IMG/VR virus record: IMGVR_UViG_3300037189_003197
Coordinates: 1 to 61,748 of that record
From: a virus
DNA: 61,748 nucleotides
Reading direction: 5' to 3' (one strand)
This document shows, in pieces, positions 54,929 to 58,358 of this stretch; the first letter of the stretch is position 1; the number at the start of each line of letters is the position of its first letter. The notes beneath the pieces were generated by a model that saw nothing but the letters and a program-made list of their open reading frames with translations, had not been told where the DNA came from and searched no databases. The position numbers and the translations under genes were made by a program.

Positions 54929-55084
54929 CTAGCTACCTTCCGTTTCGTGGTTCTGTCCAGCAGCGTTGCCACCGTCTACTTTTTGGAGTTCTGTGTAAAT
55001 GCTTCCAGATCTTCCACCATCAATATTTCCAGGTCCTGCAGGCCCCTTTGGGCCAGGCATTGGAACAATCTTTACAATTGGCAT
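54929..55084 (-). CDS. small collagen-like peptide
   Basis: A 51-residue product starting MPIVKIVPMPGPKGPAGPGN, with a short GxP triplet run and an N-terminus similar to the VRIVPVPEF segment of the 51286-51792 protein. A strong GGAGGA site lies upstream, and the start overlaps the previous stop (TAATG). Too small to be a full fibre; possibly an attachment peptide or a fragment of a split fibre. Confidence 0.7.
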   Translation of the reverse strand: MPIVKIVPMPGPKGPAGPGNIDGGRSGSIYTELQKVDGGNAAGQNHETEGS

Positions 55085-55482
55085 TACAATCCTCCATATA
55101 GTGTCATGTCTGCAGATACACTAATAACACCAATTACTGGGGTCCAGACGGTGTTGTCATCAAATGCTACCTGTAGGTCAAAGTCCAGCTCTGCGGATAT
55201 GCCAGATCTGGCAGTTCCCCATTCTGCTGTTAAGTCTGCTGAAGCAACGATATCTACGTAACCTGGCTGTGGTGTAACGCTCAAAGAATGAGCTATGCCA
55301 GTTGCCTTATCGTAGGCGGTAGATGTATAAATCCAATCAGAAGTATCGTAATTGTCTACCTCATTATTTTCTAAAAACTCAACCCTTAGCCTAGAGGTGT
55401 CTCCCCTAACAACCTTCCAGTTAATCATAGCTGGATTAGATCCAATAGTTTGGATTTCTGGGGGACAATCAATACAAGACAT
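55084..55482 (-). CDS. baseplate upper-protein-like protein, copy 2
   Basis: A 132-residue beta-rich protein. VVRGDTSRLRVEFLENNEVDNYDTSDW resembles the YKGDTFEFIIRPKDGNG beginning of the 40673-41047 protein. The N-terminus has Cys-Pro (SCIDCPPEIQ). ATG 55482 lies 6 nt after an extended -10 and has no Shine-Dalgarno. It opens the large-fibre unit. Confidence 0.65.
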   Translation of the reverse strand: MSCIDCPPEIQTIGSNPAMINWKVVRGDTSRLRVEFLENNEVDNYDTSDWIYTSTAYDKATGIAHSLSVTPQPGYVDIVASADLTAEWGTARSGISAELDFDLQVAFDDNTVWTPVIGVISVSADMTLYGGL

Positions 55483-55488
55483 ACTGTA

Positions 55489-55497
55489 ATTATATCA
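55489..55497 (-). promoter_or_regulatory. extended -10 (TGATATAAT), leaderless start
   Basis: The box ends 6 nt before ATG 55482. It is the first promoter of the fibre array. Confidence 0.55.
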
Positions 55498-55504
55498 TAA
55501 TAAA

Positions 55505-55566
55505 TAGAATAAAAGACTAGTGCCTAGGTTGCAGAGGGGTGGGTAGATGGTACCTAGACACTAGCC
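55505..55566 (-). ncRNA. candidate small RNA or strong terminator hairpin
   Basis: A 13-bp stem between 55517-55529 and 55552-55564 (CTAGTGTCTAGGT against ACCTAGGCACTAG on the minus strand, one G-U pair) encloses a 22-nt loop and is followed by TCTTTTATTCT. An extended -10 (TGTTATAAT, 55573-55581) lies 6-8 nt upstream, so a transcript of about 60 nt ending at its own terminator is predicted. It may otherwise be the terminator of the 56,049 unit. Confidence 0.5.
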
Positions 55567-55572
55567 TAAACA

Positions 55573-55581
55573 ATTATAACA
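55573..55581 (-). promoter_or_regulatory. extended -10 (TGTTATAAT) before hairpin RNA
   Basis: TGTTATAAT on the minus strand, directly before the hairpin of the candidate small RNA. No coding start lies near, so this promoter has no other visible target. Confidence 0.45.
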
Positions 55582-55625: not shown

Positions 55626-55645
55626 TGTGGATAAAATGTGAATAA
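55626..55645. other. pair of DnaA-box-like sites
   Basis: TTATCCACA (55626-55634) and TTATTCACA (55637-55645) are read on the minus strand, 11 bp apart. Both fit the DnaA box TTATNCACA. An AT-rich stretch (55,660-55,780) follows, a candidate unwinding element at the strand switch. Confidence 0.6.
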
Positions 55646-55779
55646 CATTGTTATAAAAGAGTTATAAAAAATCAGGGTAAAAAGAGTTGACAATTGCAAA
55701 TGTGTATGTATAATATAATATATAAATATAAATAGCTAGCTAGATACCAAGTATATTATATATATTATATATAGAGAAA
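55646..55779. other. AT-rich intergenic island
   Basis: It holds no gene. It contains the plus-strand promoter at 55687 and runs of TATATA/ATATAT with CTAGCTAG. It lies beside the DnaA-box pair and may serve as an unwinding element; nothing else was recognised. Confidence 0.4.
55687..55714 (+). promoter_or_regulatory. strong plus-strand promoter antisense to holin-like gene
   Basis: TTGACA (55687-55692), 16-nt spacer and TATAAT (55709-55714). It points rightward into the opposite strand of the 55,780-56,049 gene. No plus-strand gene is near before 56,204. Confidence 0.55.
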
Positions 55780-56049
55780 TTATTTAGATTTTCTAGAACT
55801 AGACTTTAATCCATTTTCGACAATAACATCGTAGATCTTATCAACTTTAGATTTAAGTTCGCCGTGTTGAGCTTCGAGTCTATTAACTTGATCCTTTAAA
55901 GATCCACCACCATTTGGTTTAAACTCAGCTTTAATTTCGTCGAAATAGTGTTTTGTAAGCCAGCGAATACCAGCTGCGGAAACTGCAATAACTGTTGAAA
56001 ATCCAACTATAAGTCCGACGATTGCAGCTAGAGTTTCTACTGTTGACAT
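55780..56049 (-). CDS. holin-like small membrane protein
   Basis: An 89-residue protein with an N-terminal hydrophobic stretch (about residues 6-30, LAAIVGLIVGFSTVIAVSAAGIRWL), a short loop, a Gly-Gly-Gly hinge, then a coiled coil (LKDQVNRLEAQHGELKSKVDKIYDVI) and a basic Lys/Ser tail. This is the pattern of single-span holins or spanin-like small proteins of actinophages. No endolysin was found beside it, so the lysis role is tentative. Leaderless start at 56049. Confidence 0.65.
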   Translation of the reverse strand: MSTVETLAAIVGLIVGFSTVIAVSAAGIRWLTKHYFDEIKAEFKPNGGGSLKDQVNRLEAQHGELKSKVDKIYDVIVENGLKSSSRKSK

Positions 56050-57723: not shown

Positions 57724-57744
57724 TGTGGATAACTCTGTGGATAA
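57724..57744. other. pair of DnaA-box-like sites
   Basis: Two identical TTATCCACA sequences (minus strand; 57724-57732 and 57736-57744), 12 bp apart. A CGCCGACC element lies just before and AT-rich DNA follows. Confidence 0.6.
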
Positions 57745-58319: not shown

Positions 58320-58358
58320 TGTGGATAACTATGTGTATAACTCTTTACGTTATCTACA
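58320..58358. other. DnaA-box-like pair plus one variant
   Basis: TTATCCACA (58320-58328) and TTATACACA (58332-58340) on the minus strand, 12 bp apart, and TTATCTACA on the plus strand (58350-58358, one mismatch). Confidence 0.55.

Follow-up and report, generated by a model that had tools for sequence, protein, structure and literature searches.

The 6C RNA of actinobacteria (B11; the 6C family of Rfam) folds into two hairpins with runs of C. Its C-rich loops have been reported to bind mRNAs with no chaperone involved (Mai et al. 2019, cited in PMC8628891). Among phages, RNA-seq of the mycobacteriophages D29, L5 and StarStuff uncovered small non-coding RNAs, including the 63-64 intergenic RNA and a right-end RNA (PMC5712189). 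The antisense RNA c4 of phages P1 and P7 targets a phage transcript, and the putRNA of HK022 acts in cis on RNA polymerase (PMC9378689).

The hairpin described here was found in a 61.7-kb virus record, and its 61,748 nucleotides are called the window below. The element resembles each of these systems in part: 6C in its actinobacterial setting, predicted hairpin RNA and C-rich loop; the D29, L5 and StarStuff RNAs as an actinophage intergenic RNA of unknown function; c4 as a phage-encoded small RNA thought to act by pairing; and putRNA as a short structured phage RNA beside a promoter. The likely reading, with a probability of about 0.72, is that it is an independently transcribed actinobacteriophage small RNA gene whose product of about 60 nt acts in trans through a single-stranded loop. 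This reading is inferred from sequence; no transcript has been observed and there are no expression data.

Anatomy of the element and its genomic setting

The whole element, consisting of a promoter box, a stem, a C-rich loop and a U-rich tail, lies with all its parts on the minus strand (55581-55506). An extended -10 promoter element, TGTTATAAT (55573..55581), whose spacing is similar in relatives, is separated by the 6-nt spacer TGTTTA from a GG at 55566-55565, and RNA synthesis is predicted to start there, about 6-7 nt past TGTTATAAT. The predicted small RNA (55506..55567), about 60 nt long, would comprise the hairpin and a U-rich 3' end. In particular, the 5' arm of the stem, AGGCUAGUGUCUAGGU (55552..55567), leads into a 22-nt, C-rich loop, ACCAUCUACCCACCCCUCUGCA (55530..55551), whose core CUACCCAC corresponds to CAUACCCAC in the family, and the 3' arm, ACCUAGGCACUAGUCU (55514..55529), closes the stem; both arms rest on folding and on covariation in relatives. 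The U-rich tail (55503..55513) resembles that of an intrinsic terminator. Folding of the minus strand yields -30.3 kcal/mol with a z-score of -5.5, equalled by none of 200 shuffles; the plus strand has a z-score of only -0.8, so that the strong fold is confined to the minus strand. Elsewhere in the window, further copies of the stem or loop occur at chance level only.

Most of the original prediction held. An extended -10 had been placed 6-8 nt before a hairpin, and the distance from TGTTATAAT to GG is 6 nt; the U-rich end and the C-rich loop of 22 nt were confirmed, and the 13-bp CTAGTGTCTAGGT stem is extended by the fold to 16 pairs. The suggested transcript of about 60 nt, almost all of it hairpin, agrees with the interval predicted here, with no RNA observed in either case. 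The statement that no start codon is nearby failed: the U-rich end is followed after about 24 nt by an ATG (55482), which belongs to a gene with its own TGATATAAT-N6-ATG promoter (55497-55489).

This next gene (55084..55482, minus strand) encodes a 132-aa phrog_1084-like protein and heads a structural block of roughly 50 kb, whose minus-strand genes begin at 55482 and continue towards lower coordinates. The second extended -10, TGATATAAT (55489..55497, minus strand), sits 6 nt before its ATG in a leaderless-type arrangement that is present in relatives too. Because the gene has this promoter of its own, it does not need the hairpin's. On the other side lies a gene (55780..56049, minus strand) whose product we take to be holin-like, its PHROG itself being of unknown function. 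Among hairpin loci with enough flanking sequence, a homologue of the phrog_1084-like gene lies 3' of the hairpin in 146 of 149, and a homologue of the holin-like gene lies 5' of it in 124 of 128.

The promoter box belongs to a larger class. The motif TGNTATAAT is overrepresented, with 15 copies in the window where 3.6 are expected. Of these, 14 are on the minus (coding) strand, and 11 to 12 of the 14 stand directly 5' of gene starts; this enrichment and placement indicate that the hairpin's box represents a real phage promoter class and is not fortuitous. Several copies lie exactly 6 nt from an ATG, and the hairpin's box keeps the same 6-nt spacing, to GG instead. Leaderless arrangements, with a promoter about 6 nt before the ATG, occur in actinobacteria. 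Minus-strand TGNTATAAT-N6-ATG configurations, for example at 56064-56047, 55497-55480 and 36647-36630, suggest that leaderless genes are common in this phage.

Two further features of the region were observed. A perfect consensus promoter, TTGACA-N16-TATAAT, lies on the plus strand at 55687-55714 and points the opposite way, antisense across the holin-like gene and in the direction of the rightward genes; TTGACA/TATAAT matches at 12 of 12 positions occur in similar places in the relatives L010, L014, L016, L021, L024, L029, L031 and L038, and early antisense control of the holin is a possibility. Moreover, DnaA-box-like TTATNCACA sites occur on the minus strand in pairs 2-3 nt apart, at 55626-55645, 57724-57744 and 58320-58340, the first of which adjoins an AT-rich stretch (55690-55780).

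Conservation, distribution and hosts

Pattern scans impose the loop and promoter, so their counts are no proof of conservation; that proof comes from a set collected with the holin-like protein, without using the hairpin. This search returned 64 loci in other viruses, and a covariance model from which the window was excluded located the element downstream of the holin-like gene in 31 of them, always on the same side. The remaining loci are mostly more distant relatives with different genes downstream. The 26 distinct cases share one anatomy: an extended -10, then after 3-9 nt the stem with its loop, followed by a U-tract, a second -10 and an ATG. In nearly all hairpins of this set the first -10 is TG-extended and lies 3-9 nt from where the model starts, and the second -10 and the ATG come after the hairpin.

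Across 82 distinct hairpins, the TG-extended -10 is present in 78 and the loop core UCUCUCAUACCCAC is the same in 77; the pattern scans impose this last figure in part, but the core is nearly universal in the holin-based set as well. The family stem measures 13-16 bp; the loop above it, of about 14-26 nt, carries the near-invariant core (UCUCUCAU)ACCCAC. Stem and loop lengths vary by single bases between members. A U-tract, defined by T at no fewer than 6 of the 8 nt at the stem end, is found in 66 of the 82; it is weak in some members (the L017/L026 type, L305 and L307), so that not every member can be assumed to terminate transcription.

Covariation in related phages, a test set beforehand, was clearly passed. 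In an author-picked alignment of 24 sequences (A1), two-sided changes affect 12 of 14 stem pairs, and they fill 59 cells compared to 15.5 after shuffling, a count reached in none of 500 shuffles. Paired cells amount to 94.6% in register versus 31-50% in slid controls, and many of the pairs involved are G-U.

The covariance model, which includes neither the window nor L003, recovers the window hairpin with 36.4 bits (E = 3e-6), a score that derives mostly from the stem, as the loop is divergent. The window's loop core, CAUCUACCCAC, retains the ACCCAC of the family's UCUCUCAUACCCAC and is altered in its 5' part; this divergent loop, CAUCUACCCACC, is confined to a small clade made up of the window and L003. 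Between these two, the element is identical at 75 of 76 positions, compared to a DNA identity of 65% for the next gene and 79% for the flank. The gene order of the family is also met in the window, with a holin-like gene before and a phrog_1084-like gene after the hairpin. By sequence comparison, without RNA data, the window hairpin belongs to an RNA family that had not been catalogued before.

A strict pattern with 21 fixed bases matched at least 120 viral contigs, and no bacterial or archaeal genome matched it in a scan of 257 Gb. A further 64 loci from the strict viral scan were tested with the covariance model, and every one of them scores. A looser pattern gave 11 matches in bacterial genomes, none of which the model rates as a family member. 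In records searched over their full length the element occurs once; two of them gave a second match, which was the same palindrome on the other strand, and a match to the window-type loop in L367 has no family hairpin and is probably due to chance. Named phages showed no match by DNA or by the downstream protein. The cultured Planktophila phages E7 and F5 (PMC10202952) have a holin-like relative and lack the hairpin. In the first 100 kb of Streptomyces phage Yaboi (Stanwilliamsviridae), a weak terminator-like match before the endolysin gene (20 bits, E = 0.05) has no conserved loop.

A WhiB gene was detected at E = 0.001 or better in 16 of 20 records, exceeding the curated cut-off in 14, and the portal and DnaB helicase are closest to those of Streptomyces phages. 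From the WhiB genes, portal and helicase it is inferred that the hosts are very likely actinobacteria, of species not identified. In at least two relatives, L032 and L033, both neighbours are kept in the same order and the element is absent, which makes it accessory to the phage rather than indispensable. Compared with L026, these two loci offer a natural presence/absence comparison for the hairpin. L026 and L033 also share, downstream of the holin-like gene, a G- and C-rich non-coding stretch (CTCTGAGGGAAAGTCCCCCCCTCCCCCC...CTAGTGCAAAGTCCCCACAAACCC), perhaps another structured element.

Proposed function and rival explanations

Two criteria for a small RNA gene are satisfied: its own promoter, by sequence and conservation only, and its own terminator, by the stem and U-tract, with the weakness in some members already described. 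With its own promoter, a terminator-like end and a separate promoter downstream, a discrete RNA of about 60 nt is the simplest reading. Transcription would start at the stem base and end at the U-tract, yielding a stable RNA in which the stem is a scaffold only and the loop acts in trans; the loop is proposed as the working part because it stays constant while the stem drifts. The original prediction had left open a choice between a stable small RNA and a terminator with a fortuitous box, and the conserved loop and promoter support the former.

The main rival is a cis-acting leader. On this view transcription does not stop at the hairpin but continues into the late operon, and the fixed-loop hairpin of the nascent RNA influences RNA polymerase (put-like antitermination), the stability of the mRNA or the expression of the operon. 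In its favor, the hairpin always lies directly before the same gene heading the structural block, the U-tract is weak in one sub-group, and the HK022 putRNA provides a precedent, being a phage RNA hairpin that affects polymerase in cis (PMC9378689). However, most members have a U-tract (66 of 82) and a leaderless-type second promoter immediately downstream makes a leader unnecessary, so that this explanation is considered unlikely. There is still less support for a simple intrinsic terminator whose role is to stop transcripts running on from the holin gene, the -10 upstream being there by chance. A stem and U-tract after a gene would fit it, as would the simple terminator-like hairpin before the endolysin gene of Yaboi; yet a terminator needs neither a conserved 14-nt loop nor a fixed-spacing promoter, both of which are conserved, and its loop is typically short, compared to the 14-26 nt seen here.

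A DNA-level element, such as a protein binding site or a replication or packaging signal that is palindromic by coincidence, is equally hard to sustain. The locus does adjoin a stretch rich in A and T, where two TTATNCACA sites resemble DnaA boxes (55626-55645), but the many G-U pairs in the covariation are a mark of RNA pairing, the promoter and the U-tract both read in one direction only, and the strong fold z-score appears on the minus strand only. A short peptide gene is all but excluded. The window copy does contain an open frame of 14 codons (GTG-TCT-AGG..CAC-TAG), but single-base length differences in the loop and stem break the frame among members, there is no ribosome binding site, and base changes come in compensating pairs.

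For the preferred reading, a small RNA acting in trans, the partner may be of two kinds. In the favored version, inferred by analogy with 6C, the C-rich loop would base-pair with G-rich sequence in a host RNA, the loop's complement being GUGGGUAUGAGAGA; no target has been found, and this version is given slightly less than even odds. Recognition of the loop by a host protein, also inferred and without binding data, is given lower odds. The original suggestion that the loop may pair with target RNAs gained no support in the phages themselves: loop-complementary sites were not enriched in 20 phage records, and those at the gene starts of six near-complete phage genomes revealed no conserved target. 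The loop complement in one E. coli rRNA operon likewise scored no better than controls, which were permuted or reversed loops here and in the phage genomes. With no complementary site enriched in the phages, action in trans remains without target support.

A bolder, less likely possibility is that the loop serves as bait. In this picture the conserved CUCUCAUACCCAC, unpaired and carried on a disposable stem, would capture a single, unvarying host molecule, conceivably a tRNA, part of an rRNA, an mRNA that the host cannot do without or a protein that binds RNA. If so, a large clade of uncultured actinophages takes over the same host function with one RNA. CUCAUA-CCC has some likeness to the anticodon arm of the initiator tRNA, and ACCCACC to the acceptor end of tRNA-His; since CAU is not kept in all members, neither relationship is claimed.

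Small RNAs conserved across a phage clade are rare. This family is sharply defined by promoter, stem, loop core and place, such that a simple pattern recognizes more than 100 uncultured genomes, and it is a useful marker for spotting this phage clade in metagenomes. A constant loop on a drifting stem implies a partner that is unable to change, and identifying it would reveal what these phages must control in their hosts.

Comparison with described RNAs

No Rfam 15 family, including 6C, reaches its gathering score on the hairpin, and relaxed searches return only chance-level matches; the hairpin RNA family is new in that it belongs to no family of that catalogue. Unlike 6C, the element consists of one hairpin and differs in the sequence of its loop; it has no Rfam match and is phage-borne rather than chromosomal. 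The right-end RNA of the mycobacteriophages comes from about 500 bp of transcribed DNA, whereas the element here is a single short hairpin before a structural operon, a comparison made without aligning sequences. In contrast to c4, the hairpin has no conserved phage target in the phage records searched and, again, no Rfam match. Compared to the HK022 putRNA, which works in cis on polymerase, the phage hairpin usually ends in a U-tract and is followed by a second promoter.
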